Positions 2,308 to 56,984 of a stretch of 56,984 nucleotides of DNA are shown in pieces. The first letter of the stretch is position 1. The number at the start of each line of letters is the position of its first letter. A program made the position numbers and the translations under genes. The stretch comes from a bacterium. Lineage in GTDB: Bacteria; Electryoneota; AABM5-125-24; Hatepunaeales; Hatepunaeaceae. The DNA is taken from assembly GCA_021734165.1 (NCBI GenBank), contig JAIPJL010000007.1, positions 1 to 56,984 on the forward strand, in the 5' to 3' direction. The notes under the pieces are model-generated. The model had not been told where the DNA came from. It made no database searches and saw only the letters and a list, made by a program, of their open reading frames with translations.

Positions 2308-2367
2308 GGTATTATCCGTATTTGATAAGTTGCTAAGTGGAAAGAATATTACTACGATATGTATAGT

Positions 2368-2432
2368 CAGTAGCCCGGTTTGCCCTCAAGCCGGGATTTA
2401 TAATTCTCGGATTTGAGAAATCCGGGCTACTG
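2368..2432. repeat. Palindromic intergenic element (CAGTAGCCCGG arms)
   Basis: CAGTAGCCCGG (2368-2378) and CCGGGCTACTG (2422-2432) are perfect 11-base inverted arms. An inner CCGGGATT / AATCCGG-like pair strengthens the fold. The element fills the gap between two S8 protease genes. It resembles REP-type extragenic palindromes and could act as a terminator or mRNA-stabilising hairpin for the gene ending at 2443. Confidence 0.7.
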
Positions 2433-2442
2433 CACTACAAAA

Positions 2443-5079: not shown

Positions 5080-5123
5080 TACTTTATCCCAGTTAAAGTA
5101 AAAATCAAATTTTTAAATCTAAC

Positions 5124-7778: not shown

Positions 7779-7854
7779 GATGTTACTCCAAGTTAATGAT
7801 CTATAACACGGCTCAAAAGTATTTTCGCATTCAAACAGCCTTACAAGTTGCCTT

Positions 7855-7875
7855 CCCCCCTACATAGTAGGGGGG
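7855..7875. repeat. Perfect 9-bp stem hairpin (C6TAC/GTAG6)
   Basis: CCCCCCTAC, a three-base ATA loop, then GTAGGGGGG. A further G6 run follows at about 7883-7888. It sits in the 245-bp gap between two protease genes. In the minus-strand transcript it lies between the stop of the gene ending at 8024 and the next start, so it may be a terminator or stabiliser. No clear T-run follows it. Confidence 0.75.
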
Positions 7876-8023
7876 AATAAAAGGGGGGTTTCCTTAGTCT
7901 AAATCAACTTTTAGTTTTGCTTATACGAAAATACTTTCAAGCACTGCTATAAATCTTTTTACTAAAATTAGCGCCTAATCTCTTAAACACTTATAAACTT
8001 CATATCCTTGCAAAACACTGCTA

Positions 8024-34984: not shown

Positions 34985-37501
34985 TTACTCACCTATAATC
35001 TCAGCAATCTGTCTCTTCCACGATTCCTGATGCACAACCTTGAATATGAATTGTTTTTCTGGAAACCGTAAACCCAATTCAGTCCATTCAGTTACTTTAC
35101 CAATCTTATTCAAAATTTCGAACAACTGCTCTTTATAACGAGTATCAGGATTTCCCGCTAAATGAGCGCCTTTTGATTCAATTACATATACAGTGCTTCG
35201 TTCATCAACTTCATCAGTATGAGCTAAGAAGTCAGGAAATACTCTGTTTGGCTGCCATCCCTGAACACTATAACCGGCGCGTGAGATATTCCGATACCAG
35301 AAAAGAAGCTTGACCTGTTTGTCAAGACATAAAGCTATATCTCTTTCAAAATCATTATAATCGGTGCGATCCTCAACTTCCCAAAGTGATCGCTGTAAAC
35401 TTTCAGTAGGACTGTGTGATAATAAATGGACATCCTCAGGCACTAACTTTGTGGGCTTTTTGTGAGGTTTTCCTTCGCTGTTTCTTATCAGATAAAAACA
35501 CAGTTTTTTACTGTCAAGCAGAGATTTGAATATCAGCTCAGCCTGCTCATCGCGATAAAGATAGAGTTTCATTCGTAATTCCTCGATGAAGAAACTCAAA
35601 TTAGCGCCGACCAGATGACGACTATATCGCCCTGTAAGACTATCAAGGCACTTTCGGGCAATATCATAGGCAATCCAGGGATTCGGCACAATATCGGAAA
35701 TTTGACGAGTAAGGAACACCGGATCGGGTTCAAGATAAACAATCCTTTTCGACAATGTCGTTCGTTTTACCGTATCAATAGGATTTTCAGACAGACTTAT
35801 CGCTTCCTCAATATCAGCCGCAGGTATTTTTTCTAAAGGATAATTATTTAGAAAGGCTAAATCCAATTTCGACCAGTCAATAGCGCTTAACAAATCCATA
35901 TCATAATCAAGAGAACGCGGTTTGGGGGGTGCATTAATAACAAATCGAGGCAGGTAAATGTTATCGGCATATTTCTTAAAATCGGATCTATAACCGACCT
36001 CAACCAGTTTACCACTTGAGTTTAAGTCACCCAATTCCGCTCTTATTTGACCACCAAGATCTCCTAAGCCTTCACCCTTAAGTGCATTTCTAATTTCATC
36101 AAGCAGCTTATGAGTAGATGAGCGTCTGCAAATAATATAACTTTCATCAAGCGCAGAGTTTCCCGTCTTTGTGGCATAAGGCTGTCTAAGGATTCTTCCC
36201 ACAAGCTGGGTTATAGCCAATTTTGCCTTGGGATTTGTAAGTACCGTCAATATATATGCAAAAGGACAATCCCAGCCCTCCTGAAGAGCCTGTTTAGTTA
36301 TTATAAAATTAATGGGACAATCCGGACTCATCAAATCCTTATCGCTGATCTCATCCAATCCACTCACCTTTACAGCAACCTCTTCGGGGGAATGGCCCGC
36401 CTCTTTTACTAAAAAATCTCTTACATCCTCAGAGTGAATACGGTTTCCATCTCTTTGATCCTTACCGGTTCTCTCCGCCTGAATTAGGCAAATAGGTCTT
36501 ATATAAACACTTTCATTTGATCTGAGTTTTTCGGCTTCAGTTCTTAAGTGCTGCCATTTAGCCAGAGTTTCCCTCATAGTATCGCGCCAGTCTTCGCTTG
36601 CCTTGGTCGTCACATGAATATCCAGCTTTATCATTCCCTCTTGAAGCACGTCCATACCACTAATATCAACAAGAGTGTTGGAAACACCTTTTATCGGTGT
36701 AGCGGTCAACTCAACGACAATACTTGGATTTAAACTGAATATCGTATCCCTGGCAAGAAAACTCGAAGCTTTTTGTCCCTCGTCAAGAATCAATATCGGT
36801 CTTAGCATTTTCATCACATTCCCAAGCGAAGTACGCGCTCCTCTCCGGTCAAACATATCGCTCTCGCCAACGTCCAAACCATGTTCGGCGATCAAAGGTT
36901 CGTAGAGGTCATACCTTCCCTCTTCAGGAAAAAAGTCAATGTACTTACCACTTTCTCTAAAAGCTTTCAGATAATCCTGGTTCTTTCGGTTTGCGGATTG
37001 GAGCATCATCAGTAATACAACAAGTGAATCTCTAACATCCTCCCTGGTAAATTTATCATTCTTTTCAACAATCTTCGTCCGACCACCGCTTGCTTTGTCC
37101 AGCGCTTCCCTGTATGAGTGGCTCCTGTCCTTTAACGCTTTCAATGTCTGTTTATAGATTTGTTCCGTCGGAACAATCCAGAGTACAATACCTGTGTTAG
37201 TATGTTTTAATACACGGTTTATTGAACCTATGGCGTGACAGGCGAGCAGGGTTTTCCCGCCGCCTGTGGGTATTTTAAGGCAGACATTGGGAACAGGTTC
37301 CCAAACAGCATTTGATCTTTTTACATACAGACTCTTTGGGAACATTTCCTTCCACGCTACTTCAGCGCAATCAGGTAATATGCTGCCTGCTTCTTTAAGG
37401 GCTGGATAAAGGTGGCTGATTTTACGTTCTTTCTCAAGAAGCTTGATAAGAAACGCTTCAAACTCTCTTAAAGCGCGAATCTGGTATTTTTTAAGCTGCA
37501 T
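34985..37501 (-). CDS. res: Type III-like restriction subunit (Res): SF2 helicase plus nuclease
   Basis: 838 residues. The N-terminal SF2 helicase has Walker A PTGGGKT (78-84) and a DEGQ box (240-243), a later TATPIKG motif III region, and motif VI QLVGRILRQP. The C-terminus holds a PD-(D/E)xK nuclease: PD (756-757) and ESK (775-777). Together with the adjacent modification gene this is a type III restriction pair that translocates on or senses DNA and cuts between sites. At 838 residues it is a little shorter than the well-studied enzymes of about 970. Its ATG overlaps the mod stop by one base. Confidence 0.92.
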   Translation of the reverse strand: MQLKKYQIRALREFEAFLIKLLEKERKISHLYPALKEAGSILPDCAEVAWKEMFPKSLYVKRSNAVWEPVPNVCLKIPTGGGKTLLACHAIGSINRVLKHTNTGIVLWIVPTEQIYKQTLKALKDRSHSYREALDKASGGRTKIVEKNDKFTREDVRDSLVVLLMMLQSANRKNQDYLKAFRESGKYIDFFPEEGRYDLYEPLIAEHGLDVGESDMFDRRGARTSLGNVMKMLRPILILDEGQKASSFLARDTIFSLNPSIVVELTATPIKGVSNTLVDISGMDVLQEGMIKLDIHVTTKASEDWRDTMRETLAKWQHLRTEAEKLRSNESVYIRPICLIQAERTGKDQRDGNRIHSEDVRDFLVKEAGHSPEEVAVKVSGLDEISDKDLMSPDCPINFIITKQALQEGWDCPFAYILTVLTNPKAKLAITQLVGRILRQPYATKTGNSALDESYIICRRSSTHKLLDEIRNALKGEGLGDLGGQIRAELGDLNSSGKLVEVGYRSDFKKYADNIYLPRFVINAPPKPRSLDYDMDLLSAIDWSKLDLAFLNNYPLEKIPAADIEEAISLSENPIDTVKRTTLSKRIVYLEPDPVFLTRQISDIVPNPWIAYDIARKCLDSLTGRYSRHLVGANLSFFIEELRMKLYLYRDEQAELIFKSLLDSKKLCFYLIRNSEGKPHKKPTKLVPEDVHLLSHSPTESLQRSLWEVEDRTDYNDFERDIALCLDKQVKLLFWYRNISRAGYSVQGWQPNRVFPDFLAHTDEVDERSTVYVIESKGAHLAGNPDTRYKEQLFEILNKIGKVTEWTELGLRFPEKQFIFKVVHQESWKRQIAEIIGE

Positions 37502-39102
37502 TACTTGAGTCCCCGATACAGCTCATACGGCAGTTGGCAGTACTCAACTCTGTGCATAGCCATGAACTCAGCGGATAAGAATCGCGCAGGGGCGAAAACT
37601 ACCCTGGTTCTACCCTTATGAAGCGGCAAGTTCTCAGCGTAATCAAGAGTCAACGCGCTTTTACGCAGAAACTCAATTTCCGGTTTATAAATCATATAAA
37701 TATCATATTCACGCGCAGATCCTATATAACCGCTCTCCTGATTAATCTTATCAATGTCGATTTCCTCGCCTGTTGCAGTAAAGAAAACATAACGGGCAAG
37801 CTCATCAAAACTCGGTAGATTTTCACCTTCTAATAATTTTTGAATTTCAATCGGTTCACCGAGTTCGAAGTAGGAGAAACCGCCGCCTAAACCATCACGC
37901 AATTCGGTTTTCTTTGCGCCGGGAACGCCGTTAATTACTCTTCTAACTCGTTCTGCCGTAATATCATTCGCATAATCCTCGCACTCAACGAGAATGAACT
38001 TACGATTGCCTCCGTCTTCTTTGTTCAGGTCCAAAACAGCATGAGCGGTGGTGCCGGAACCGGCGAAGGAATCGAGGATGATGGAGTCATTGTCGCTTCC
38101 CTGTGTTATTAATTCCTTTATTAGTGAGACTGGTTTTGGGAATTTAATTGTCTCTTGATCCATTATTATTCTTAATTCTTTTGTTCCCGCCTCAGTAAAC
38201 CCAACCTTAAGTATTGTTGAAAATCCCGTATATTCGTTTTTTCTCTCATTCAGATATCTCTTAAACCTTGGTTTACTGTTCTTATTTTTTGGCCAAATCA
38301 TTCTTTCTTCTTCAATAAGTTTTGCTACAGTTGATGGTTCAAATCTCCATCCATTATCAGGAGATGGTGAGTATTCTGTTCCAGTAGCCGGATTTGTAAT
38401 AATATAGTGCAAATTAGGACGAGCTTCTTTAACAGCGAGACCATCTATTGAGGAACTCATCCACTGACCTCTTGGATCGTTGTCAGGATTTTTATATTTG
38501 GATGTATCAACCTGTGCACCTCTAATACGACAAGTACTTTCTTTTGAATAACACAATATGTATTCGTGATCTTGTGATGCTCCATTTAGTGTTCTACTAT
38601 CAACATTTTGACGTGAATTCCAAATAAATGTAGCTAAATGACAATCATCTCCAAATATTTCATCTATTACTGACTTTAGCCTGTGTACTTCAATATCGTT
38701 TATTGAAACAAATAACAATCCATCATCCTTCATTAATTCTCTAAGTAGTTTCAATCTCGGCGTCATCATACAGAGCCATTTTTCATGTCTCTCTTCATCA
38801 TCAATACCAACTTCCTTACCGAGCCATTCTTTCATCAGAGGGCTGTTGACGTTATCGTTGTATTTCCATCCTTCGTTACCGGTGTTATATGGCGGATCGA
38901 TATAAATGCATTTTATCTTACCTGAATATGTCGGAAGCAGCGCTTTGAGGGCGTGAAGGTTGTCGCCATGAATTATCAGGTTATCGTGAAGGGATATCTT
39001 ATCGGTGAGGCTCTTTTCCGGAACAGGCTTAAGCTCACGAAACGGAACGCTTAAATGGTGATTCCAGACTACTGAGCGACCTTTGAATTGAAGTGTTGGC
39101 AT
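37501..39102 (-). CDS. mod: Type III-like DNA adenine/cytosine-N4 methyltransferase (Mod)
   Basis: 533 residues with catalytic DPPY (69-72) before the SAM motif FAGSG (346-350), the order of beta-class amino-methyltransferases used by type III systems. The roughly 270-residue region between them likely contains the target-recognition domain. It protects host sites and directs Res. It is shorter than the usual 600-700 residues. The recognition sequence cannot be predicted. An AT-rich gap with repeats lies upstream. Confidence 0.92.
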   Translation of the reverse strand: MPTLQFKGRSVVWNHHLSVPFRELKPVPEKSLTDKISLHDNLIIHGDNLHALKALLPTYSGKIKCIYIDPPYNTGNEGWKYNDNVNSPLMKEWLGKEVGIDDEERHEKWLCMMTPRLKLLRELMKDDGLLFVSINDIEVHRLKSVIDEIFGDDCHLATFIWNSRQNVDSRTLNGASQDHEYILCYSKESTCRIRGAQVDTSKYKNPDNDPRGQWMSSSIDGLAVKEARPNLHYIITNPATGTEYSPSPDNGWRFEPSTVAKLIEEERMIWPKNKNSKPRFKRYLNERKNEYTGFSTILKVGFTEAGTKELRIIMDQETIKFPKPVSLIKELITQGSDNDSIILDSFAGSGTTAHAVLDLNKEDGGNRKFILVECEDYANDITAERVRRVINGVPGAKKTELRDGLGGGFSYFELGEPIEIQKLLEGENLPSFDELARYVFFTATGEEIDIDKINQESGYIGSAREYDIYMIYKPEIEFLRKSALTLDYAENLPLHKGRTRVVFAPARFLSAEFMAMHRVEYCQLPYELYRGLK

Positions 39103-44917: not shown

Positions 44918-46456
44918 TCATTTCAAATTTACATTATTCAGAAAAACCTCGATCATTCCATCCATATTATACTTCTTCGCTTCAGCATCAACCTTAATTC
45001 CTAATTCCCTCGCTACAGCCGTTGTTGATGGACCTATCGAAATTACTTTGGACTCAGATGCTACTCTGACAGCGTCATCAGATCCAAGTATCTTAACAAA
45101 GCCCTGTACAGTGGATCCGCTTGTGAAAGTTATGTAATCCGGTGGATTTTCCTTAACGACCTTGATCCAGTGAGGCTCCCAAGATGGCGTCACGGTCTGG
45201 TAAACAGTTACCTGAACCAATTCAGCGTCAAGTTCAGTAACAGTGTTGTCAATCACGTCATCGCTTAGATCGCCACGTACCCTTATCACAGTAGTGTTTT
45301 GTGGATTATCTATCCGCCTTGCTAATTCCCGCGCAAGTTCGCTGCCAAGTGAAACATCGGGCACAAGATCGGGTCTTAATCCCCTCTCCGTAAGCGCTTT
45401 GGATGTGCCCGGTCCGATTGCAGCAATTTTAAAACTATACAGGCAGCGATTGTCATATCCTCTCCGCCAAAGCCCTTCAATAAAATATTCAACACCCGGT
45501 CTGCTGGTAAAAACAAGCCAGCCTGATTTATTGAGCGCTGATTCGACATTTCTCCAGCCATCGTCATCAGTATAAGGTTCAATTTGAATAGTGGGTAATG
45601 GAAGTGGTTCAGCCCCGTGTAAGCGCAACACTTGACAAAACTCTTGAGAAACCTTATAAGGTCTTGTCACCAGTACTCGTTTTCCTGCCAGTTTACCTTC
45701 TTTCCACCAGTTCAGTTCTTTTGAATATTCTGTTACGTTGCCAATTAGTATTATCGCAGGCGCTTTAATTCCGGCGTCTGAACATGCTTTTTCTAATCTG
45801 TCAATTTGTGCGTTCACAATTTTCTGTGAACCGGTATAACCACTTTGAATAATCGCTGCCTTCGTTTTGGGATCGATCCCGCCTTTTGTAAGATCTTCGA
45901 CAATCCTTGGTAAATCACCAACGCCCATATATATAGCTACGGTTCCACTCTTTAACCTGGCAATTTCATGCCAGGGTACCGGTGGTGATCCTGAAACAGC
46001 TTCATGTCCGGTAGCAAGTAAAACCCAGGATGCATCGCGTCTATCAGTCAAAGGAATACCCGCTCCTGCCCCAACAGCAGATAAAGCAGTCACGCCCGGT
46101 ATAATCTTATATTCTATTCCGGTATTCTTCAGAAATGTAATCTCTTCCCCACCCCGTCCGAAGATCAGCGGATCGCCGCCCTTTAATCTGACAACATTCA
46201 ATCCGCGTTCAGCAATCTCAACAATTAGTTTGCTTGTAGCATCCTGCGGTTTATAATGAGCGCCTGCGCGTTTGCCTACATAATATCGCTTGATCCTCTC
46301 AGGCAGCGCTGCGACTAACTCAAACGCTGCCAGATCATCATAAACCACCGCATCACAGTTCTGAAGCGCATCCCAGCCCATGCGAGTAATTAAATCAGGA
46401 TGTCCAGGACCGGATCCGACGAGATAGACTATTCCGGCGTCTTTTTCTTTTTTCAA
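44918..46456 (-). CDS. cobA-hemD: Fused uroporphyrinogen-III C-methyltransferase / uroporphyrinogen-III synthase (CobA-HemD)
   Basis: 512 residues in two enzymes. Residues 1-250 are SUMT (CobA): VGSGPG (13-18), GGDPLIFGRGGEE (93-105) and GIPLTDRRDASW. It methylates uroporphyrinogen III twice to precorrin-2. Residues about 255-505 are HemD (RVLVTRP, VFTSRPGVEYF, AIGPGTSKAL, TFTSGSTVQGF), which closes the tetrapyrrole ring. The fusion channels tetrapyrrole to the siroheme/cobalamin branch. It overlaps the precorrin-2 dehydrogenase by four bases, at the end of the dsr-linked run. Confidence 0.95.
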   Translation of the reverse strand: MKKEKDAGIVYLVGSGPGHPDLITRMGWDALQNCDAVVYDDLAAFELVAALPERIKRYYVGKRAGAHYKPQDATSKLIVEIAERGLNVVRLKGGDPLIFGRGGEEITFLKNTGIEYKIIPGVTALSAVGAGAGIPLTDRRDASWVLLATGHEAVSGSPPVPWHEIARLKSGTVAIYMGVGDLPRIVEDLTKGGIDPKTKAAIIQSGYTGSQKIVNAQIDRLEKACSDAGIKAPAIILIGNVTEYSKELNWWKEGKLAGKRVLVTRPYKVSQEFCQVLRLHGAEPLPLPTIQIEPYTDDDGWRNVESALNKSGWLVFTSRPGVEYFIEGLWRRGYDNRCLYSFKIAAIGPGTSKALTERGLRPDLVPDVSLGSELARELARRIDNPQNTTVIRVRGDLSDDVIDNTVTELDAELVQVTVYQTVTPSWEPHWIKVVKENPPDYITFTSGSTVQGFVKILGSDDAVRVASESKVISIGPSTTAVARELGIKVDAEAKKYNMDGMIEVFLNNVNLK

Positions 46457-47103
46457 TTCTTGTCTCTTGCTTTGGATATTTTATCAAGCCAATTCAGCCA
46501 TATATCAAGATCATTGCTATCAGGTGAATTATCGCTATCATTTATTAAACCAGCATCTGTAAATCGTTTGTAGATATTCCTTTTTTCACCGATGTCATCC
46601 GTACTTTTACACACTATGTCACGAAATCTACTTGCTACAGCTATCCACTCACTAAAACCTTCGGTATATTTCTTAAGTCTGTCTCTTATTTCACCCGCCA
46701 TGAAAGGAGCGCTTCCTCCGGTACTGACTGCCATTACGAAAGGTTCGTTGCGCTCAATCGCCGGAAAAATCACCGTACTAAGTTCAGGTGCATCTACTAC
46801 ATTGACCGGAATACCGAGCCACCTTGCTTCCTCTGAAACCTTCCTGTTAACAGTCTCATCACCTGTTGCAGAAATAACTAAATGCTTCCCCATACAGTCG
46901 CCGGTTTGAAATTTACGTTGTCGATAGGCAAGACTGTTTTTAGAAATTAGTTCTGATAGAGCAGGGGCCACTTCCGGTGAGATTACGAGAATATTAATAC
47001 AACCACCATATAGCAGGACTTCTATCTTTCGCAGGGCTACGCTACCACCTCCTACAACAAGACAGGTCAGGTCATCTGTATTAAAGAATAAAGGTAGGTA
47101 CAT
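46453..47103 (-). CDS. Precorrin-2 dehydrogenase / sirohydrochlorin ferrochelatase (CysG N-terminal type)
   Basis: 216 residues. The NAD motif VVGGGSVALRK is at 16-26, Asp104 in VVDAPELSTVIFPA matches the catalytic aspartate of CysG/Met8p, and MAVSTGGSAP follows. It oxidises precorrin-2 to sirohydrochlorin and may insert iron to give siroheme. In green sulfur bacteria an equivalent gene in the dsr cluster is called dsrV. Its ATG directly follows the hemA stop. Confidence 0.93.
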   Translation of the reverse strand: MYLPLFFNTDDLTCLVVGGGSVALRKIEVLLYGGCINILVISPEVAPALSELISKNSLAYRQRKFQTGDCMGKHLVISATGDETVNRKVSEEARWLGIPVNVVDAPELSTVIFPAIERNEPFVMAVSTGGSAPFMAGEIRDRLKKYTEGFSEWIAVASRFRDIVCKSTDDIGEKRNIYKRFTDAGLINDSDNSPDSNDLDIWLNWLDKISKARDKN

Positions 47104-48294
47104 TTATCCGCCATCTTCATCTTTGATTATTGTATTATTTATCCGCCTTAAAAACTGACGATACATGTTTTTCGACATTGCATCGAGCGCTTTCTGGTCA
47201 CCCTGTCTGAAGCTCTCCTTAAATCGACTCAATATCTCTTTGCGGTCTATTTCAAGCAGTTCACGCAAAGCCGAACTGCTTTCACCAACTGCGCTTTTAT
47301 ACCATAATTCATAGATACGCACCTGCTCTTCAATAAGATCCAGAGCATAAGGCAGATCTACTGCACGAGTGGTTTGAGTCTTATCAAGATATACTTTAAG
47401 ATCATCGAGATCAAGTAGGGTCACATAATCAATGTCACCCACAAGCGGATCAATATCACGAGGAACAGCAAGATCAATCGCTATAATCGATTTACTCGAC
47501 TTATCAATGAAACATTCCGGTTTAATTAAATATCCAGGTGAAGACGTCACCGAAAAGATAATAGAAAATTCCTTTAAAACAGAAGGCATAACTTCAAATT
47601 GAACAACAGAAGCGTTGTATGGACGAGCGACTTTTACAGCAGTATTATAAGTTCGATTAGTAACTGTAATATCAGCGCCTTCGTTCGCTAATCGTGAAAG
47701 AAGCATTTCAGTTGAGTTATTTACACCGATAATTAACGCTTTTTTACCCTTAAGATTTCTGTTGAAATGATCTAAAACCATCTCAATAGAAGCGCCTGCC
47801 AGACTTTGTATGCCGGATCCAATATCGGTTTCATTTCGAACTAACTTAGCAATATGAAAAGCATGATGAAATAACTTGTGGAGATATTTACTTGGACCAT
47901 TAACCGAACAGGCAGCGCTGTAGGCGTCTTTGGTTTGCCCAAGCACCTGATATTCTCCGAGTAAGGGTGAATCAAGACCGGATGTCACCTTGAAAAGATG
48001 TCTGCTTGCGCTTGTGCCATGCCTGACAAAATATATGTCCTCCAGTTGCTTTGTATTTTCAATTCTACGTTCTTTATAAAAACTGATTACAGCATCTTTA
48101 GGATCGATTTTTATCGTATTTTTACAATAGAATTCAATACGATTACAGGTAGCTAATATAACGATCTCCTCAAATCCGGAGATGCGCTTAAAATCCGCAG
48201 TTGCTTTAGCAAGCTCATAGCGTTGAAGCTGAAAAAGCTCCCTTTCTGCAAGGGAGCTGGTTCTGTGATTTATTCCACAACAGATTATTGGCAT
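47104..48294 (-). CDS. hemA: Glutamyl-tRNA reductase
   Basis: Converts Glu-tRNA to glutamate-1-semialdehyde, the first step of tetrapyrrole synthesis by the C5 route. It has 396 residues, with catalytic Cys50 in ILATCNRIEFY, substrate motif SGLDSPLLGEYQVLGQ, NADPH domain (KGKKALIIGVNN) and a C-terminal dimerisation helix. hemL is not in the window. It is the first of three consecutive siroheme-pathway genes, directly following sulfur genes. Confidence 0.96.
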   Translation of the reverse strand: MPIICCGINHRTSSLAERELFQLQRYELAKATADFKRISGFEEIVILATCNRIEFYCKNTIKIDPKDAVISFYKERRIENTKQLEDIYFVRHGTSASRHLFKVTSGLDSPLLGEYQVLGQTKDAYSAACSVNGPSKYLHKLFHHAFHIAKLVRNETDIGSGIQSLAGASIEMVLDHFNRNLKGKKALIIGVNNSTEMLLSRLANEGADITVTNRTYNTAVKVARPYNASVVQFEVMPSVLKEFSIIFSVTSSPGYLIKPECFIDKSSKSIIAIDLAVPRDIDPLVGDIDYVTLLDLDDLKVYLDKTQTTRAVDLPYALDLIEEQVRIYELWYKSAVGESSSALRELLEIDRKEILSRFKESFRQGDQKALDAMSKNMYRQFLRRINNTIIKDEDGG

Positions 48295-48340: not shown

Positions 48341-50008
48341 TTAAGGTAGAAATAATGCGCCACCTGCTAAGATTCCGATGTTGCAGCTCCGTGTTCGTCT
48401 AAGCATTAGCGCTGCATCCCAGGCGCGTCCACCGGTTTGACAGACCGTCACAATCATACCATCACAATTTATCTCATCTAATCGCTTTCGCAAATCCTCA
48501 ACCGGTATCTCTATCTTTGTTTTCTCTCCAACATTCAAAGGTTTCGTTTTAATCTCAGAAGGTATTCTGACGTCCAATATTGTAGTATCATTAGGAAGCT
48601 CATCAAAATCAGCAGGAGAAACAAGCTTTATTCTTGCAGTTCTACTGTTCTCTGCAATAAATGACATATAATGCAACGGATCAAATGGAAGCGCATAAGG
48701 AGGCGCATAAGCATGTTCAATATCTGCAAAATCATCAAGTGTACCACCATTTCTGATTATCTGTGCCGCTTCAGTTAAAACAGGAACAAGCTCCCCTCTG
48801 GTAATTGCCTGAAAACCGAGAACCCGATTATTTGAACGCTCATAAATTACTTTCATGTTAATTGGAGTAGCGTCAGGATAATAATGAAGTCGATCATGGA
48901 AAGTTCCCCAGCATACTTCAGTTTCATAACCCTGCTCCTCAAAATAAGCGCTGTTATAACCAGCAGAACCAACAGTCAGATCAAATACTTTGATCACGTT
49001 TGTACCAACAACAGGTCCAAATTTTGAATCACCATTACATATATTATCACCGACGACGCGTCCCATTCGTGACGCAAGCGATCCCATCGGCCATGTTCCT
49101 GCTTCTCCATCGATAGCGCTTGTGAGTTCTACACAATCACCACATGCATAGATATCCGGATCAGAAGTTTGCAGCTTTTCATTGACTTTTATACCGCCTG
49201 TAACTCCTGTATCAAGTCCAGCTAATCTTGCTAAGCCTGAGTTCGGTGTAACACCCGATGTAAGAATAACCCTGTCAGCCTGAATCATGTCGCCTTCGTT
49301 ATCAAATATACATATCCGGTTTGATTCTTCAATAATCTCTCTGCAACCGCATTCAAGTTGAATTCTGATCCCTTGCTTTATTAGCTCAGCTTCGATTAAT
49401 TTAGCGATTTCAATATCGACAATATTGGAAAGAAGATGATTCTGCAAATCAACCAGATCTACATCTACGCCCCACATTGAGTGAAAGGCGTCACAGAGTT
49501 CCAACCCGATGAAACCTCCACCGACAATAATAACTTTTTCAATCTTGTTCGTTTCTAATTCTTTGCGAAGTTGAATCACATCTTCAGCTCTGGAAAATGT
49601 CAATACACCGTTAGAATCAACTCCAGGTATTGCAGGCGCTACCGGAATACTTCCTGTAGCAATAACAAGTTTATCATAAGGAAATGTAGCTTCTCTCGTC
49701 CCTCCATCAACTTTGCAGCGCACCAATCTTGCAGCGCGATCTATACTTACTACTTCGTGCTTAATTAGAACCTCAACACCCTTCACATCGCGAAAATATT
49801 TCTCGTCCTTGACAGTTCCATTTGGCGTATCAATCAAACGATCAAAACTATCAACATCGCCTGATAGGAAAAATGGAAATCCACAGTTTGATGTTGCAAA
49901 GTACTTATCTTTTACAAGTACCCGCACTTTAGCGTCAGGCTGAAGTCTGCTGATACGGCAGGCAGCTTTAAGCCCCGATGCTGATCCGCCTATTACGACA
50001 ATGTCCAT
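48341..50008 (-). CDS. CoA-disulfide/persulfide reductase with C-terminal rhodanese domain
   Basis: A 555-residue flavoprotein: FAD motif VVIGGSASGLKAACR (4-18), redox-active Cys42 (TSNCGFPFF), NAD motif VIIVGGGFIGLE, and a second FAD motif YACGDCVEL. It ends in a rhodanese domain (about 460-555) with the sulfur-carrying Cys523 in VCQTGGRAWD intact. This layout is that of NADH-dependent persulfide reductase and fused CoA-disulfide reductases. It lies 56 bases downstream of dsrP and 46 upstream of hemA, so a role in persulfide/sulfane-sulfur supply or disposal is plausible. Confidence 0.9.
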   Translation of the reverse strand: MDIVVIGGSASGLKAACRISRLQPDAKVRVLVKDKYFATSNCGFPFFLSGDVDSFDRLIDTPNGTVKDEKYFRDVKGVEVLIKHEVVSIDRAARLVRCKVDGGTREATFPYDKLVIATGSIPVAPAIPGVDSNGVLTFSRAEDVIQLRKELETNKIEKVIIVGGGFIGLELCDAFHSMWGVDVDLVDLQNHLLSNIVDIEIAKLIEAELIKQGIRIQLECGCREIIEESNRICIFDNEGDMIQADRVILTSGVTPNSGLARLAGLDTGVTGGIKVNEKLQTSDPDIYACGDCVELTSAIDGEAGTWPMGSLASRMGRVVGDNICNGDSKFGPVVGTNVIKVFDLTVGSAGYNSAYFEEQGYETEVCWGTFHDRLHYYPDATPINMKVIYERSNNRVLGFQAITRGELVPVLTEAAQIIRNGGTLDDFADIEHAYAPPYALPFDPLHYMSFIAENSRTARIKLVSPADFDELPNDTTILDVRIPSEIKTKPLNVGEKTKIEIPVEDLRKRLDEINCDGMIVTVCQTGGRAWDAALMLRRTRSCNIGILAGGALFLP

Positions 50009-50064: not shown

Positions 50065-51219
50065 TTAAGGAATACTGGCTCTGACTGAAAGTACGATTTT
50101 ATACAGCAATGTCACAATCAAAGCACCTATCGCGTAAACACCTAATGCGATTGCCAATTCGTTAAGAGTCGGTACATATCTTGCGACTACATGAAATGGA
50201 TTTGGCACAAAGCCTGCGACGATCATACCCATTCCCTTATCTATCCATATTGAGATAAAAAGCGTGATACAGCCTAAGGCAAGTATTTTTTCATTCTTCC
50301 TGCCAGCCGGAGGTATCAGCAATATCAAAGTAACAATTGCAAGTATTGAAGAAGTCCACATCCATGGTACAAAGAATGTGTTTCCATCAAGACCGACAAA
50401 TAAATACTTGAAATGAGACATATGATCCTCCATCCCACCATAGAAAGTGGTGAATATTTCCATAAGTATCAAAAACACATTCAAACACATGGCGTAAATT
50501 GCAATCACTGCAAGCTTCTGGATTGGTTCCTTGCCAACATCGAAACTGGAAATTTTCCTAAGCAATAAGCAGAGCAGGATTAATAACGCGGGACCTGCGG
50601 AAAATGCAGAAGCAAGAAAACGTGGCGCTAATACCGCTGTCATCCAGAAAGGACGCGCTACCAAACCAGAGTAGAGAAACGCTGTTACAGTATGAATACT
50701 AATTGCCCAGGGAATCGAAATAATAATAAACGGTTTGATCCATTTGGGTGGAGCAGTCAGTTTTCTTTCAGCGCCAAGCGTTACAAAACCTATCAATATA
50801 TTCAAGCAAAGATAACCTCCCAATGCAACCGTATCCCAGAACATTGGAGAATTAGGTGAAGGATGCAGAAATACATTTAGAATGCGAAACGGTTGTCCCA
50901 TATCAACAAAGATAAACAGCATACACATCAGTACAGATGGAATCGCCAGAAACTCACCCAAGATAGTTATCTTTCCGAACATCTTGTAGTTATGAAGATA
51001 GTACGGCAGCACAACCATTACTGCTGAAGCAGCTACTCCAACAAGGAAAGTAAATTGTGCAATATAGAATCCCCATGACACATCCCTGCCAAGTCCTGTT
51101 ACCGTTAAACCACGGTTAAACTGGCGCATATAAAAAAGAAAGGCAATTAGAATCACTGCTCCCAAAAAGAAAAGCCAGCTCCAGTATTTTTTATCTCCAT
51201 AAAATGCTTTTTCAATCAT
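50065..51219 (-). CDS. dsrP: DsrP, NrfD-like integral membrane subunit
   Basis: 384 residues with about ten membrane helices, NrfD/PsrC family. In DsrMKJOP it anchors the DsrO iron-sulfur protein and handles quinones. The sequence starts with a short cytoplasmic stretch (MIEKAFYGDKKYWSW) followed by the first helix. It is seven bases downstream of dsrO. Assignment rests on family plus position. Confidence 0.93.
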   Translation of the reverse strand: MIEKAFYGDKKYWSWLFFLGAVILIAFLFYMRQFNRGLTVTGLGRDVSWGFYIAQFTFLVGVAASAVMVVLPYYLHNYKMFGKITILGEFLAIPSVLMCMLFIFVDMGQPFRILNVFLHPSPNSPMFWDTVALGGYLCLNILIGFVTLGAERKLTAPPKWIKPFIIISIPWAISIHTVTAFLYSGLVARPFWMTAVLAPRFLASAFSAGPALLILLCLLLRKISSFDVGKEPIQKLAVIAIYAMCLNVFLILMEIFTTFYGGMEDHMSHFKYLFVGLDGNTFFVPWMWTSSILAIVTLILLIPPAGRKNEKILALGCITLFISIWIDKGMGMIVAGFVPNPFHVVARYVPTLNELAIALGVYAIGALIVTLLYKIVLSVRASIP

Positions 51220-51226
51220 GACTGCC

Positions 51227-52006
51227 TCAAACTATGTAATAGATTGCTGGATTAGTTCCCAATCCCGGTTTACGAAGGATAGTAAAGTTATTGCTCAAGA
51301 GTTTACGAATATCTGATTTCGGATCATGAATGTCACCAAAAACGATAGCATTCGCCTTGCATGCCTCAACACAAGCAGGCTGCAAACCCCTTGAAAGGCG
51401 TTCATTACAGAAAGTGCATTTCTCAACAACACCTTTCATTCTCGTTGGAAAATCAGTGTTTTGTTCTTCTAATACTTCTCTCGGATCACGCCAATTAAAA
51501 CTCCTCGAACCATAAGGACAAGCAGCGATGCAGTAACGACATCCAATACAACGGTGCCAATCCATCATGACAATTCCGTCTTCATCACGTTTCCAAGTTG
51601 CCTTTGTGGGACAAACACTAACACAAGGTGGATTTTCGCAATGGTTGCAAAGCACTACCGCCTCAATATGTTGGATTTTTTCACTCAGAAATTCATGCTG
51701 ATTATCATTAAACGCATGTCCAAAGTGTTCTTTCCAAATCCATTTAATCTCGTCCTTGCGATTAGGTTTTCCATCGGGAAGAACGAAATTAGGTACATTG
51801 TGAACTTTATGGCAGGCGTCTATACAATCTGTACAACCTTCTTCTTTACTGCATTTTCTGAGGTCTATCGCCATCGCTAACTTCTTACCGCTTTTTGAAG
51901 TCTCGGTTTTAGCAATCTCTGCCAATAATTCCGAAGCGGGAATTGCTACGAGTCCAAGGGTTGAAAGTCCCGTAATTTTGATGAAGTCTCTTCTTTTAAT
52001 ACTCAT
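51227..52006 (-). CDS. dsrO: DsrO, periplasmic ferredoxin-type iron-sulfur subunit
   Basis: 259 residues. A Tat signal is visible (RRDFIKITGLSTLGLVAIPA), so it is exported folded. Four cysteine groups (KCSKEEGCTDCIDAC, CNHCENPPCVSVC, CIGCRYCIAAC, CTFCNERLSRGLQPACVEAC) bind up to four [4Fe-4S] clusters, as in HybA/DmsB-like proteins. It passes electrons between DsrJ and DsrP. Its ATG overlaps the dsrJ stop by four bases. Confidence 0.95.
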   Translation of the reverse strand: MSIKRRDFIKITGLSTLGLVAIPASELLAEIAKTETSKSGKKLAMAIDLRKCSKEEGCTDCIDACHKVHNVPNFVLPDGKPNRKDEIKWIWKEHFGHAFNDNQHEFLSEKIQHIEAVVLCNHCENPPCVSVCPTKATWKRDEDGIVMMDWHRCIGCRYCIAACPYGSRSFNWRDPREVLEEQNTDFPTRMKGVVEKCTFCNERLSRGLQPACVEACKANAIVFGDIHDPKSDIRKLLSNNFTILRKPGLGTNPAIYYIV

Positions 52007-52542
52007 TTTACTGCTACCTCCATCAATTGCGGTTCAGGTATAATGTGACAATCCCAGCAGTATGGATCAACTGACATATATGTATGGCATCGATCACAAA
52101 ACTGCTCTTTATTTGAATGACATTCTATACATGAGTAAGCAGTAATATTATCTTTTAAATGCTTTGCCTTGACTCTTTTAACTTGAATAGTAGAATTTGT
52201 GTCACCTTCAGCCGTAATGCTGTATGAGGTATTCAGGATAGTCTCTACTTCGGTATTAATATAAGAAAGACTGCGATTAAATCTTCTACCGTCAGGAGTG
52301 GTATGAATCCGTTCGCCATCTCGAACAACAAGATCGCGCCATTGATCAAGAACATCCATGTGAGTAGCCAGCATTTCTTCCTTTGGTAAAACACAGCGAT
52401 CTTTACCTTTGACGCCTTTAGTGGCAATCACATAATCCTTTAAGCTTGGATCCTGATCACTTGCGAGATTGTACCAGATTGGAAGCGTCATTATAAAAGC
52501 GAAGATGATCAATCCAATTATAATTTTTCCACCGTTATACAT
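52003..52542 (-). CDS. dsrJ: DsrJ, periplasmic triheme cytochrome c
   Basis: 179 residues from ATG at 52542, chosen because GGAGG lies nine bases upstream. A longer frame from 52575 adds an arginine-rich stretch without such a site. An uncleaved signal/anchor helix (about 5-26) leads to a periplasmic domain with three c-type heme motifs, CIECH, CDRCH and CWDCH, near the C-terminus. This number is diagnostic for DsrJ. The start overlaps the dsrK end by eight bases. Confidence 0.95.
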   Translation of the reverse strand: MYNGGKIIIGLIIFAFIMTLPIWYNLASDQDPSLKDYVIATKGVKGKDRCVLPKEEMLATHMDVLDQWRDLVVRDGERIHTTPDGRRFNRSLSYINTEVETILNTSYSITAEGDTNSTIQVKRVKAKHLKDNITAYSCIECHSNKEQFCDRCHTYMSVDPYCWDCHIIPEPQLMEVAVK

Positions 52543-54151
52543 CTTCTGTCTCCTCCTTTCCTGGTAGCGGATCACTTCTCATATCAAGTGTCCTTTCCTT
52601 TTCGCCCTTGATAACCAGCGCATTACCAACTAACTCGTGAACACTACCAATCTGTACACCAGAAACCCAATAATCAATCAGTGTTGGCAGAACGGCTTTA
52701 TCGATTGCACACATACAAGTAAGCACATTCACACCATGTTTGTCGTGAACATACTTAACAGCGTTTGCTCTTGGAAGTCCACCACGCAGACGCATTTCCA
52801 TGTTCTCTTCAGTTCCTAATCCAGCGCCGCCGCCGCAGCAAAATGTCTGTTCTTTTATGCAATTCTCAGGCATTTCAAAAAAGTTATTGGCAACGCTGTT
52901 AATTATATAACGCGGTTCTTCGAGAATACCCATTGCGCGTGCCGGATTACATGAATCATGGAAGGTTATACGCCATTGATCATTACGGCTTTTATCAAGC
53001 TTAAGTTTACCATTCTTAATTAAATCAGCAGTAAACTCGGTGATGTGAACCATTTTCGTTGATCTGGCATTTTCAAACACCGTACCGGTTATCGGAGATT
53101 TGGGAACTTCAAGGAAATCTGCAGGACCGTTCATAGTATCCATATATTGATTGATGACACGCCACATATGACCACATTCACCACCAAGCACCCATTTAAC
53201 ACCCAGTCTTTTTGCCTCCATGTATATTTTGGAGTTAAGTCGTTTCATCATTTGATTAGAATGAAACAGACCAAAATTTCCACCTTCCGAAGCATAAGAA
53301 CTGAAGGTGTAATCAAGTCCTATTTCATGGAATAAGGCTAAATAGCCAAGGAAACCAAAGTAATGTGGATCACCAAAGTAATCAGCAGAAGGCACTACAA
53401 ATAATATTTCCGCACCTTTTTTATTTACCGGAGCTTCAACTTTAATTCCTATAATGTCTTCAAGATCGTCAACGGCGAAATCAACACTATCCTGAAAACC
53501 ATGCGGCTGAATACCAAGGTGGTTACCGGTACGGAAACAATTTGCAGCAGGTGTGGTAATCCAATCTATCTCCAAGCCAACCAGACTTAAAAGTTCCCTG
53601 CCCATCATGGTTATTTCGGCGGTGTCAATTCCATAAGGACAGAAAACCGAGCAACGTCGGCATTCGGTGCATTGAAAGAAATAAAAGAACCACTCTTTAA
53701 GAACATCCTCTGTCAAATCCCTGGCTCCAGCCATTTTACCCATCAATTTACCGGCAAGTGTAAACTCCTTGCGATAAACTGCACGTAATAGCTCGGCTCT
53801 CAGCACAGGCATATTCTTAGGATCACCAGAACCGATGAAGAAGTGGCATTTATCAGCACAAGCACCACAGCGAACACATATATCCATGAACACCTGAAAT
53901 GTTCTGAATTTTTCAATACGCTCTCTCATTCCTTCAAGGATGATTTTCTTCCAGTCTTTAGGCAACTGCCAGTCATCATCAGTTGGCGACCATTTTCTGG
54001 GATTAGGCAGATCCAGATATTCTACGCTTTTTTGAACAGCCCCCCAGTTGATCTTGCCCTTGCGAATATCCGGTTTCGTATCCATCCACCCTGTACCGGG
54101 TGGTTTATAGTCTATTTGAACCAGCTCTTCTTGTTTTAGCGTTTCTGACAT
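52535..54151 (-). CDS. dsrK: DsrK, HdrD-like iron-sulfur subunit
   Basis: 538 residues, cytoplasmic side of the membrane complex. It has two [4Fe-4S] motifs (Cys92-95-98-102, and Cys161-164-167-171), and CCG-domain cysteines (Cys401 in HDSCNPAR; Cys438-439 in CCGGGAGLGTEE) for the special HdrD-type cluster. It reacts with the DsrC trisulfide/disulfide. The start is two bases after the dsrM stop. Length and motifs are normal for DsrK. Confidence 0.96.
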   Translation of the reverse strand: MSETLKQEELVQIDYKPPGTGWMDTKPDIRKGKINWGAVQKSVEYLDLPNPRKWSPTDDDWQLPKDWKKIILEGMRERIEKFRTFQVFMDICVRCGACADKCHFFIGSGDPKNMPVLRAELLRAVYRKEFTLAGKLMGKMAGARDLTEDVLKEWFFYFFQCTECRRCSVFCPYGIDTAEITMMGRELLSLVGLEIDWITTPAANCFRTGNHLGIQPHGFQDSVDFAVDDLEDIIGIKVEAPVNKKGAEILFVVPSADYFGDPHYFGFLGYLALFHEIGLDYTFSSYASEGGNFGLFHSNQMMKRLNSKIYMEAKRLGVKWVLGGECGHMWRVINQYMDTMNGPADFLEVPKSPITGTVFENARSTKMVHITEFTADLIKNGKLKLDKSRNDQWRITFHDSCNPARAMGILEEPRYIINSVANNFFEMPENCIKEQTFCCGGGAGLGTEENMEMRLRGGLPRANAVKYVHDKHGVNVLTCMCAIDKAVLPTLIDYWVSGVQIGSVHELVGNALVIKGEKERTLDMRSDPLPGKEETEDV

Positions 54152-54153
54152 CT

Positions 54154-55146
54154 TTACTCCTTATCCAGAGGCATTCCGGCTTCCCGCATTACCTCTCTGA
54201 ATTCGTCTTCGTACTCCTCGTATGTATGCATTTTAACCTTAGGATTCCATGGATTGATATGCCTAACCACACGATTGTTATTAGCCAGATTCCTTGTTGG
54301 GCTGAGGAAAATCCCGCCCATGTGCATCAGCTTGCTCAAAGGAAAATAGGAAATCAGAACGGAAACCAGGAATAAATGTATAAAGAAGAGAGAACTAATC
54401 CCATCGGGAACAACCGGATTGAAGCTGAAAATACCGACAGCTATATCCTTGACGCCAATAATATCAACCTTGGTAAAATATCTCATTAAAATCCCTGTTA
54501 CAGCGATTGCCAGTATCAGAAACAGCGGAAAGAAATCTGCAACAAGTGAGATATATCTAAGCTTGCTGTCTGTAAGTCGGCGAAGTACTAAGTAAGTCAC
54601 TGCTGCAACAATAAATATATCGGTCATAAAAACAACCGGCAACCCTATCTGTAGAAACCCATCAAGGTTTTCTAACGCTTTTATGCACCAGGGAACCGGT
54701 TCCATGAAAAATCGGAAGTGTCTGATGAAAATTATTAAAAATGACCAATGAAATAACAATCCACCAAGCCATAGCAGTTGGTTCATACCATAAACAAGTC
54801 TTGGACCGTCTTTGAGAGTAGTCTTGGTGTTCTTAAACAAAGACCTGAATAAAAGAACTTCAAGCGCCATCCTTATAAAAGCGCCAAGCCAGTTATGTGG
54901 ATTCTCAATAGGATTGTTTTTAATCCACGACAACGATTTCTGCTGACCGCAAGTAGTAGGTATTCTAAATGGAACAGGCGCTCTCGCCCATTTGATTACA
55001 CGGTAAACAAAACCAAAAATAAAAATTGAAATTGCCAGATAAGGTATGATAACCGCAAACAAGTAACTAAGACCAAGTGTCTGGGCACCCACGAAGGAAA
55101 TTATTATCAGTACTATAACGGCAACAAAGGAGATTAAGGCATTCAT
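54154..55146 (-). CDS. dsrM: DsrM, membrane diheme b-type cytochrome
   Basis: 330 residues with about five or more membrane helices, NarI-like. It carries heme b and links the quinone pool to DsrK. Hydrophobic segments begin at residue 2 (NALISFVAVIVLIIISFVG), with histidines inside helices (HWSFLIIFIRHFRF, FIHLFLVSVLISYF) as heme ligands. GAGG precedes its start. Confidence 0.94.
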   Translation of the reverse strand: MNALISFVAVIVLIIISFVGAQTLGLSYLFAVIIPYLAISIFIFGFVYRVIKWARAPVPFRIPTTCGQQKSLSWIKNNPIENPHNWLGAFIRMALEVLLFRSLFKNTKTTLKDGPRLVYGMNQLLWLGGLLFHWSFLIIFIRHFRFFMEPVPWCIKALENLDGFLQIGLPVVFMTDIFIVAAVTYLVLRRLTDSKLRYISLVADFFPLFLILAIAVTGILMRYFTKVDIIGVKDIAVGIFSFNPVVPDGISSLFFIHLFLVSVLISYFPLSKLMHMGGIFLSPTRNLANNNRVVRHINPWNPKVKMHTYEEYEDEFREVMREAGMPLDKE

Positions 55147-55332: not shown

Positions 55333-55863
55333 TTATTCCGCGCTTACATCCAACTCATTTTCAGGAACAGCATAATTGAATCTACTTAAAATAATGTTAG
55401 TTCTTCTTGATAACTCCTTAGAGCGAGCAAGATATAGCGCTTCTCTGCATTTTTGATAACTATCGAAAGCAAGTAGTATCAAATTATCGATCTTAGATTC
55501 AATTTCCTGCAATTCACCGAAAAGACGATATTCCAGCAATTCGTCTCTAAGTTCATCAATCACTGCCTTTTTCAGCAGAAATATAAAACTTACTGCTTTT
55601 GACGGAGTAAATTCCTGAACAGAGCGTATTCTTATTATATTATCAAGTGAATTGGAGAGTATCTCAGGATCTACCTCAGTTAGAAGGGCTTGTATTAAGA
55701 CCGCGGTATCCTGCTTAAACGTATTTCCAACCGGGTTGGAAAACGGATTTTCTTGATTTCTCAGGAATCCTTGAGCATCCTTCGGATAGGTATTTATAAT
55801 GAGATCCAACCAGATATTCAATATATCCGTTTGTTTCTCTTCTATGAGATCAATTAAGTGCAT
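55333..55863 (-). CDS. RsbRD N-terminal-domain protein in the dsr operon
   Basis: 176 residues, all helical, no signal peptide. The pattern LIDLIEEKQTDILNIWLDLIINTYP and TPSKAVSFIFLLKKAVIDEL fits the RsbRD_N (globin-like sensor) domain. I recall such a gene near dsrMKJOP in sulfate reducers. It may sense a signal or chaperone the complex; no output domain (STAS) is attached. It has 186 bases before dsrM. Confidence 0.78.
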   Translation of the reverse strand: MHLIDLIEEKQTDILNIWLDLIINTYPKDAQGFLRNQENPFSNPVGNTFKQDTAVLIQALLTEVDPEILSNSLDNIIRIRSVQEFTPSKAVSFIFLLKKAVIDELRDELLEYRLFGELQEIESKIDNLILLAFDSYQKCREALYLARSKELSRRTNIILSRFNYAVPENELDVSAE

Positions 55864-55940: not shown

Positions 55941-56258
55941 TCAGACACATCCTGTAGGTTTGGCAAGACCTGCAACTTTACAGGCGCCTTTTGCCGGACC
56001 TGAAGGGAATAATTCATAAACTTTCTTCAATGGAAAACCTGTTTCCTTGCAGAGCTTACGAATCATCGGTGCGATACCGAACTTCTGGTAGTAATCACGT
56101 AAGTAGTTTACGAGGTGCCAGTGTTCTTCAGATAATTCCGCTACACCCTCAGTACTGGCTAACGCCAATGCTACTCGCTCGTTCCACTGATCCGGTTCTT
56201 CCATAAAACCGTCTTCATCGACATCGATTTTGACTTCTTCCCACTCAAAGATTGCCAT
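55941..56258 (-). CDS. dsrC: DsrC sulfur-carrier protein
   Basis: 105 residues from ATG at 56258, with AGGAG eight bases upstream. A longer frame to 56342 runs into dsrL and is rejected. The C-terminal arm GACKVAGLAKPTGCV has both conserved cysteines (Cys93 and Cys104), so it is true DsrC rather than a TusE-like form with one cysteine. It carries sulfur as trisulfide between DsrAB and DsrMKJOP. A hairpin follows the gene. Confidence 0.96.
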   Translation of the reverse strand: MAIFEWEEVKIDVDEDGFMEEPDQWNERVALALASTEGVAELSEEHWHLVNYLRDYYQKFGIAPMIRKLCKETGFPLKKVYELFPSGPAKGACKVAGLAKPTGCV

Positions 56259-56293
56259 TTGCTTTTCTCCTATTGCGTTTGTATTTATCTTTT

Positions 56294-56984
56294 TTATTTG
56301 ACTTGTGCAGGATCTTTCATCACAAGGTAGCCACATGGACATGCATTAGCGCATTTATCGCAGCCGTTGCAGAATTCTAATTTAAATTTGTATCCATGGT
56401 CTCCCATAATTGATTTCTCGATTGCATTCTCACCACAGTAACTCCAGCAAGTACCGCAATCAAAACAGGCTCCACAGCTCATACAGCGTTTTGCTTCTTC
56501 TATGACATCTGCTTCCGGGAGAGTTGCAGCTATTTCAGCCCATGGTTTTATATTAACTCTTTCATCCGCTGAAAGCATTTCACATTCATGCCTGAGCATC
56601 TTCTCGTAGTAATCAAGAAGAATCTTATCTGATTTGATTACTTCCCGTTTCTCCTCTTCAGGGAGTTCAATACCTCGGAACTGACAGTGAATTGTCTCAG
56701 CCGCACGGCGTCCTTGATAAATCGCGACTGTTACCAATCCTAAATCAATTACATCGCCACCGCTGAAAGTTTTATCATATTTCGTTTTAAATTCGTCATC
56801 GACTTTTACCCAATCACGACCTTCATGTAGATGATCAAGTCCTCCCCAGTCTGGTTCTTGAGAAATCGCCGATATAACTGCGCTGACCGGAATTGTGAAT
56901 TCATTTCCTTCGATTGGAACTGGGCGTCTTCTACCGGAATCATCGGGTTCGCCAAGTTCCATTTGCTGACAGCGCATCTCAACC
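56294..56984 (-). CDS. dsrL: DsrL, NAD(P)H:acceptor oxidoreductase, C-terminal part
   Basis: The frame is open to the right edge, so only the last 229 codons are present. The visible part has the end of a GltD-like flavin domain (VSAVISAISQEPDW, FSGGDVIDLGLVTVAIYQGRRAA), a linker, and a C-terminal ferredoxin domain with CMSCGACFDCGTCWSYC and CNGCDKCANACPCG. This ferredoxin extension is typical of DsrL. DsrL transfers electrons between NAD(P)H and DsrAB. It ends 35 bases before dsrC. Confidence 0.9.
   Translation of the reverse strand, partial: VEMRCQQMELGEPDDSGRRRPVPIEGNEFTIPVSAVISAISQEPDWGGLDHLHEGRDWVKVDDEFKTKYDKTFSGGDVIDLGLVTVAIYQGRRAAETIHCQFRGIELPEEEKREVIKSDKILLDYYEKMLRHECEMLSADERVNIKPWAEIAATLPEADVIEEAKRCMSCGACFDCGTCWSYCGENAIEKSIMGDHGYKFKLEFCNGCDKCANACPCGYLVMKDPAQVK

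Follow-up and report, generated by a model that had tools for sequence, protein, structure and literature searches.

A persulfide reductase-like gene in the dsr operons of Electryoneota and Zixibacteria

Why does a gene for a persulfide reductase-like flavoprotein lie between dsrP and hemA in a dsr locus, and does it belong there? The question is raised by npsr (48341-50008, minus strand), a gene in the window, i.e., the whole stretch of 56,984 nucleotides analyzed, which is an entire contig (G000:C80) of an Electryoneota genome. The open reading frame starts with ATG, has no internal stops, and encodes 555 amino acids, comprising a flavoprotein similar to NADH-dependent persulfide reductase (Npsr) and a C-terminal rhodanese domain.

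The Pfam matches of the protein are Pyr_redox_2 (residues 1-296; 3.5e-56), the dimerisation domain Pyr_redox_dim (residues 339-434; 7.6e-10), and a rhodanese domain (residues 465-550) with a marginal score of 22.0 bits vs. a cut-off of 22.2. The AlphaFold model (pLDDT 91.7, pTM 0.88) has as its top fold match the Npsr of Archaeoglobus fulgidus (AfNpsr; 6PFZ), with a full-length TM of 0.94 and rmsd of 1.8 Å, and the Shewanella Npsr and the Bacillus CoADR-RHD are lower-ranked matches (TM 0.89). Because the model aligns over its full length with these rhodanese-containing Npsr structures, the rhodanese domain was accepted despite its marginal score. AfNpsr is also the top PDB match by sequence (2e-109, residues 1-553, 36% identity), and the second is 3IWA from Desulfovibrio vulgaris (3.3e-85). 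The redox centre Cys42 (within SNCGFP) and the rhodanese Cys523 (within CQTGGR) align with Cys42 and Cys519 of AfNpsr, as the latter are named in PMC7969121. The protein further contains Y376 and Y434, the two conserved tyrosines near CoA, and a CoA-covering loop at about residues 60-66. It thus has both the arrangement (a PNDOR flavoprotein fused to a single C-terminal rhodanese domain) and the residues of an Npsr, and the description in the initial annotation of a persulfide reductase-rhodanese fusion with intact redox cysteines is borne out.

The other label offered by the initial annotation, CoA-disulfide reductase, did not hold. That enzyme is the best NCBIfam match (TIGR03385), but the score of 325.6 bits is far below the equivalog cut-off of 578.8, and the protein has a rhodanese domain, which CoA-disulfide reductase lacks according to PMC7969121. 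The same paper reports that AfNpsr, the nearest solved relative, depends on NADH alone for the reduction of persulfides and polysulfide, and that no activity was detected on CoA-disulfide, oxidised glutathione or cystine. Based on the sub-cut-off score and this substrate range, the protein is called Npsr here; by analogy it very likely belongs to the persulfide reductase class, and CoA-disulfide reductase is the less likely label. To our knowledge, no member of the Electryoneota/Zixibacteria Npsr clade described below has been studied biochemically.

The dsr locus is located wholly on the minus strand (the initial annotation gave no strand). Read from the right end of the window leftwards, it begins with the C-terminal part of dsrL (56294-56984), which is cut by the contig end and is placed in the same order as the complete dsrL in a related locus (L059). 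This is followed by dsrC (55941-56342; PF04358 and TIGR03342), which encodes both C-terminal cysteines (CKVAGLAKPTGCV); as the homologues are 105 amino acids long, its true start is probably at about 56258. The next gene encodes an RsbRD_N domain (55333-55863; PF14361, 68.4 bits). Such a gene also occurs upstream of dsrM in most other dsr loci examined, and it is possibly the dsrT of other authors. The membrane complex genes come next, namely dsrM (54154-55146; NCBIfam NF038037, 538.6 bits, cut-off 300), dsrK (52535-54151; NF045796, 728.5 bits, cut-off 400), in which the GGECGHM motif has Cys and not UGA, dsrJ (52003-52575; NF038038, 134.9 bits, cut-off 100), dsrO (51227-52006; NF045797, 302.9 bits, cut-off 200), and dsrP (50065-51219; NF045798, 458.9 bits, cut-off 350). 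After a gap of 56 bp comes npsr, and after another 46 bp hemA (47104-48294; PF05201, 139.4 bits), which encodes glutamyl-tRNA reductase for siroheme precursor supply. The last two genes are a cysG N-terminal-type siroheme synthase gene (precorrin-2 dehydrogenase; 46453-47103; TIGR01470, 141.7 bits, cut-off 62.3) and a cobA-hemD fusion (uroporphyrinogen-III methyltransferase/synthase; 44918-46456; TIGR01469, 247.5 bits, cut-off 185). In a scan for promoters and terminators, the interval between dsrP and npsr had no terminator-like site, and hits in other places did not exceed chance level. With its shared strand, short spacing, and an order conserved in related genomes, npsr qualifies as a member of the dsr operon. 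The start of the locus (qmoC-qmoA-qmoB-dsrA-dsrB-dsrD-dsrN) is on a separate contig of the same genome (C114), and joining the two pieces reproduces the gene order of the relative G003 (L059), whose locus is unbroken. Judged by the criteria of PMC10591310, dsrD and dsrL together with qmo genes point to the reductive pathway.

Elsewhere in the window, four large tandem genes (199-10669, minus strand) encode subtilisin-like secreted proteases with YPNPFN-type C-terminal sorting-like ends, three of which are close paralogues. Overlapping helicase-like and DNA methylase-like open reading frames (34985-39102, minus strand) read as a type III restriction-modification pair.

The proposal of the initial annotation would have been refuted by homologs that lack linkage to dsr genes in related genomes; the survey decisively showed the opposite, as such linkage is widespread. 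In the Electryoneota/AABM5-125-24 sample of 39 genomes (G000-G038), with only strong and full-length Npsr counted, 19 genomes have Npsr and 20 have dsr. The two occur together in 18 genomes, Npsr alone in one, dsr alone in two (G006 and G020), and neither in 18 (Fisher p = 5e-8, which treats genomes as independent and overstates the evidence given their relatedness within the phylum). Thus, 18 of the 20 dsr genomes carry npsr, and 18 of the 19 genomes without dsr are also without npsr. The gene is directly after dsrP in 13 of the 18 genomes with both (G000, G001, G003, G004, G007, G011, G013, G018, G021, G023, G024, G027, and G030), nearby in G026 and G012, at a contig end in G029, and on another contig in G016 and G032. 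The six Electryoneota genomes of family f6 have npsr between dsrP and qmoC-qmoA-qmoB with no adjoining hemA, and sat and aprBA lie beyond the qmo genes wherever the contig extends that far. The sole genome with Npsr and no dsr genes found is G002, a relative of the window's family, where npsr adjoins sat and a membrane pyrophosphatase-like gene (L062, G002:C45).

A locus of Candidatus Zixiibacteriota (L080) has the order dsrKJOP-npsr-hemA-cysG, as in the window, and the phylum Zixibacteria was therefore surveyed as well. Among the 119 genomes, with DsrK as the dsr marker and four genomes with dsrK at a contig edge scored positive after locus inspection, Npsr and DsrK occur together in 45, Npsr alone in two, DsrK alone in three, and neither in 69 (p = 1e-26, overstated by relatedness in the same way). 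Accordingly, npsr is present in 45 of the 48 dsr genomes and absent from 69 of the 71 without dsr. For the 40 loci compared, dsrP is directly before npsr in 37 (spacing 8-125 bp; two of the others begin at a contig end), and hemA is directly after it in 33. Four further loci (L244, L250, L251, and L252) agree in the position of dsrP. The usual order across both phyla is dsrMKJOP-npsr-hemA-cysG-cobA/hemD. A long open reading frame in G177 (L238) that resembles a peptidase-npsr fusion is an artefact joined across a masked N-run. True absences of npsr were found in G144, G204, and, in Electryoneota, G006, where dsrMKJOP is followed directly by hemA. As these three dsr genomes have the operon and lack the gene, npsr is dispensable.

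The clade structure is a sounder argument for the npsr-dsr association than the p-values. In a tree of 105 Npsr sequences, inferred with the loop columns excluded, all 59 from Electryoneota and Zixibacteria form one clade (support 100) that splits into a Zixibacteria half (support 94) and an Electryoneota half (92). The copies without linkage to dsr (G002, G016, and G032) also fall within this clade. Most likely, npsr joined the operon before the two phyla separated, or did so once in one phylum, from which the other then received the complete operon. The single clade indicates that npsr is an ancestral and fixed operon member, and the tree together with the synteny in two phyla rules out that horizontal transfer recently placed it between its neighbours dsrP and hemA. 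Consequently, the initial annotation placed the gene correctly, but its term "inserted" is misleading. The pairwise divergence of npsr correlates far better with that of hemA (rho 0.87) than with that of dsrO (0.34); the value for dsrP (0.15) is weak, being equalled or exceeded in 9 of 200 permutations, and is not counted as support. Apart from this clade, the tree contains a separate pair of Npsr from G061 (L078, G061:C97) and G077 (L075, G077:C113; from a phylum of three genomes), both of which adjoin dsrA without hemA. In G061, sat, aprBA, and qmoABC are located upstream of dsrA-npsr. This pair represents a second, separate case of Npsr lying with genes of sulfate reduction.

Conservation within the two-phylum clade was examined in 65 sequences, counting readable positions only. 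Cys42 is kept in 63 of 64, Tyr434 in 62 of 63, an acidic residue at position 187 in 64 of 65, and the rhodanese residues Cys523, Gly526, and Arg528 in all 62. Position 187 corresponds to AfNpsr E183, which is modelled as favouring NADH over NADPH (PMC7969121). The window sequence TPNGTVK aligns without gaps with TTYGAVR of AfNpsr (residues 60-66, over the CoA pocket), which places the protein in the long-loop (Archaeoglobus-type) group, and the loop is seen in every clade member whose stretch is intact. Outside the clade, 18 of 50 relatives have the loop, 11 of them in genomes with DsrA or, once, DsrK, whereas none of the 32 loop-less relatives is in a genome with DsrA over the cut-off (p = 8.5e-7, inflated by relatedness). 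The loop is not a strict marker, as no dsr was detected in seven loop-bearing genomes outside the clade; nevertheless, the long loop there is mostly restricted to Npsr from genomes that have dsr.

Based on these results, the window Npsr is probably a cytoplasmic NADH-dependent persulfide/polysulfide reductase of the long-loop subtype known from A. fulgidus, and its genomic linkage suggests a dedicated accessory role in the Dsr pathway of Electryoneota and Zixibacteria. By analogy with the biochemistry of the family, NADH would reduce FAD and then the Cys42/bound-CoA centre, the rhodanese Cys523 would capture sulfane sulfur and pass it to the CoA thiol, and Cys42 would release the sulfur as H2S. 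The sulfane sulfur may come from persulfides or polysulfides produced in sulfite reduction by DsrAB and DsrC, possibly including sulfur still on DsrC. Npsr could in this way protect the pathway from being stalled or poisoned by this sulfur pool, and NAD+ would be regenerated. The suggestion in the initial annotation that the enzyme may feed DsrC fares less well; loading sulfur onto DsrC would require the enzyme to work against its favourable direction and, with NADH, is thermodynamically unlikely. An Npsr that takes sulfur from DsrC, or from free persulfides, would fit better. Points against the accessory role are the dispensability of npsr, its unlinked position in G016, a divergence that tracks hemA, and the retention in G012 of a gene with a destroyed redox centre.

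A narrower and more tentative reading is that Npsr uses NADH to reduce sulfur bound to DsrC. Acting on DsrC-trisulfide or -persulfide, Cys523 would take the sulfane sulfur and NADH would release it as H2S, such that DsrC is recycled in the cytoplasm in a bypass of DsrMKJOP and sulfite reduction is completed with NADH instead of quinol/membrane electrons. Consistent with this possibility, npsr is fixed behind dsrMKJOP in an operon that also has dsrC and the NADH-linked dsrL. The best hint of DsrC as the partner comes from G132 (L226:8934-11102, on a 522-kb contig), where a dsrC of full length, encoding both terminal cysteines, precedes npsr by 96 bp and cobA-hemD comes after npsr, and where searches of that genome found neither DsrA nor a full-scoring DsrK. 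However, G132 is a single metagenome-assembled genome, many other long-loop Npsr are not seen adjoining dsrC, and in AfNpsr access to CoA is restricted and large substrates are disfavoured (PMC7969121). If such a bypass exists, long-loop Npsr would be a recognisable Dsr-adapted subfamily that includes the puzzling A. fulgidus enzyme. Respiration of S0 or polysulfide is an unlikely function. It follows the interpretation in PMC10439189, in which "NSR" lets the cell use S0 as an acceptor besides sulfate; a helper in sulfur disproportionation would be a variant of it. Precedents in the family are the Pyrococcus NSR and the Shewanella Npsr (cited in PMC10439189 and in PMC7969121), and the habitat of Candidatus Tariuqbacter arcticus, the organism concerned, is polysulfide-rich (PMC10439189). 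On the other hand, A. fulgidus, the host of the nearest characterised enzyme, cannot respire S0 (PMC7969121), and in the genome most like Tariuqbacter (G012) Cys42 and the FAD GD motif are gone, as is part of the NADH motif. Moreover, a separate S0 trait would not predict the strict co-occurrence with dsr. Enzymes of the Npsr family are also soluble and conserve no energy by themselves, which counts against a respiratory role.

We consider it very improbable that the gene encodes a CoA-disulfide reductase or NADH oxidase for redox homeostasis or oxygen defence that lies in the operon by chance, even though CoA-disulfide reductase gave the best NCBIfam score, AfNpsr shows NADH oxidase activity in air (PMC7969121), and the phylum is predicted to include facultative aerobes (PMC9727166). 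That score does not approach the family cut-off, AfNpsr does not reduce CoA-disulfide, a rhodanese domain with an invariant loop of Cys, Gly, and Arg would be superfluous for such a role, and the near absence of the gene from dsr-less relatives is contrary to general housekeeping. Least probable of all is that npsr is a passenger of the siroheme genes hemA, cysG, and cobA that does not itself take part in the flow of Dsr sulfur. The correlated divergence of npsr and hemA and the usual position of hemA as the next gene (33/40) would be expected in that case, but the six f6 genomes have npsr followed by qmo genes, G061 and G077 have it beside dsrA, in each case without an adjoining hemA, and hemA remains where npsr is missing.

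The exceptional genome G012 deserves separate mention. Its npsr (L077:4385-6070, minus strand) has an intact reading frame within the operon and is beside hemA. In the encoded protein, Cys42 is replaced by Asp, the FAD motif GD by GP, the ATG motif by APN, E170 of the NADH motif by Cys, and Tyr434 by Phe, and the rhodanese Cys is retained; its branch in the tree is long (1.08). As judged from its sequence, this is a possible pseudo-reductase, in the one lineage with petBCD-like genes in the position of dsrJOP. G012, with petBCD-like genes in that place, 79% completeness and 2% contamination, is probably the same genome as Ca. Tariuqbacter arcticus, which is reported to have petBCD instead of dsrJOP, 79.91% completeness and 2.01% contamination (PMC10439189). 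If so, the S0 reduction inferred from "NSR" in that organism is doubtful. The dsrK of G012 (L077:10785-12362, G012:C438, minus strand) has an in-frame TGA at the Cys of a CCG-type motif (WGE-TGA-GHAW vs. GGECGHMW in the window). The genome also contains a tRNA-Sec gene, and a SECIS-like hairpin downstream of dsrK has a fold z of -0.15, which is not significant. This gene could encode a selenocysteine DsrK, and the TGA-split reading frame may be the reason why Tariuqbacter was reported to have "two divergent copies of dsrK" (PMC10439189).

The window enzyme extends the Npsr family by a new member, and its operon is likewise a new form of dsr operon. Its recurrence at one position of the operon in two uncultured phyla marks npsr as a probable, overlooked working part of their sulfur respiration. 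Few gene clusters of the sulfur cycle are catalogued as thoroughly as the dsr operons, yet this near-fixed member is missing from those lists and surveys of dsr genes that could be searched. A term search of PMC6018796, PMC7596348, PMC10591310, PMC10504309, PMC8528874, PMC11406059, PMC13293266, and PMC6338057 gave no mention of Npsr in a dsr operon. The text of Vigneron 2023 (PMC10439189) has a single sentence on "NSR" in one Electryoneota dsr operon; no other prior statement was found in the openly readable main texts searched. The remark in the initial annotation that this is not a standard dsr gene agrees with the literature searched except for that sentence. The finding raises the question of whether the sulfur from sulfite reduction is partly released by an NADH enzyme rather than by the DsrMKJOP membrane complex. 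If so, models of energy yield would have to be revised, as would the interpretation of dsr gene content in uncultured phyla.

Compared with known systems, the window shares its core and siroheme-synthesis genes with the canonical dsr operons known from Acidobacteriota and Desulfobacterota (dsrABDNL, C, T, MKJOP, V, and W), but Npsr is not named in the dsr literature searched. Ca. Tariuqbacter arcticus belongs to the same phylum as the window and has its homologue in a dsr operon (PMC10439189); however, that case comes from one metagenome-assembled genome, was read as an S0 reductase, and probably corresponds to G012 with its degenerate redox centre. The Npsr of Shewanella loihica (3NTA/3NTD) and the CoADR-RHD of Bacillus anthracis (3ICR/3ICT) have the same architecture and catalytic residues as the window protein (residues compared for 3NTA only). 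Unlike the window protein, the former is without the loop and is grouped with the short-loop sequences in the tree, and the latter, which is outside the present tree, has no such loop according to PMC7969121. The D. vulgaris protein 3IWA is of the long-loop type and from a sulfate reducer, but it is on a separate branch, and no rhodanese domain is seen in its solved chain of 472 amino acids, the match ending at window residue 456. The closest counterpart is A. fulgidus Npsr (6PFZ, WP_010877907.1; PMC7969121), which shares full-length homology, domain order, Cys42 and the rhodanese Cys, the CoA-covering loop, and the acidic residue for NADH, and its host is also sulfate-reducing. The two differ in their 36% identity and in the window gene being locked into a dsr operon. 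The presence of AfNpsr in its host is described as puzzling, with linkage to dsr not discussed in the accessible text of PMC7969121, and the npsr-dsr linkage reported here provides a concrete context for this unexplained Archaeoglobus persulfide reductase.
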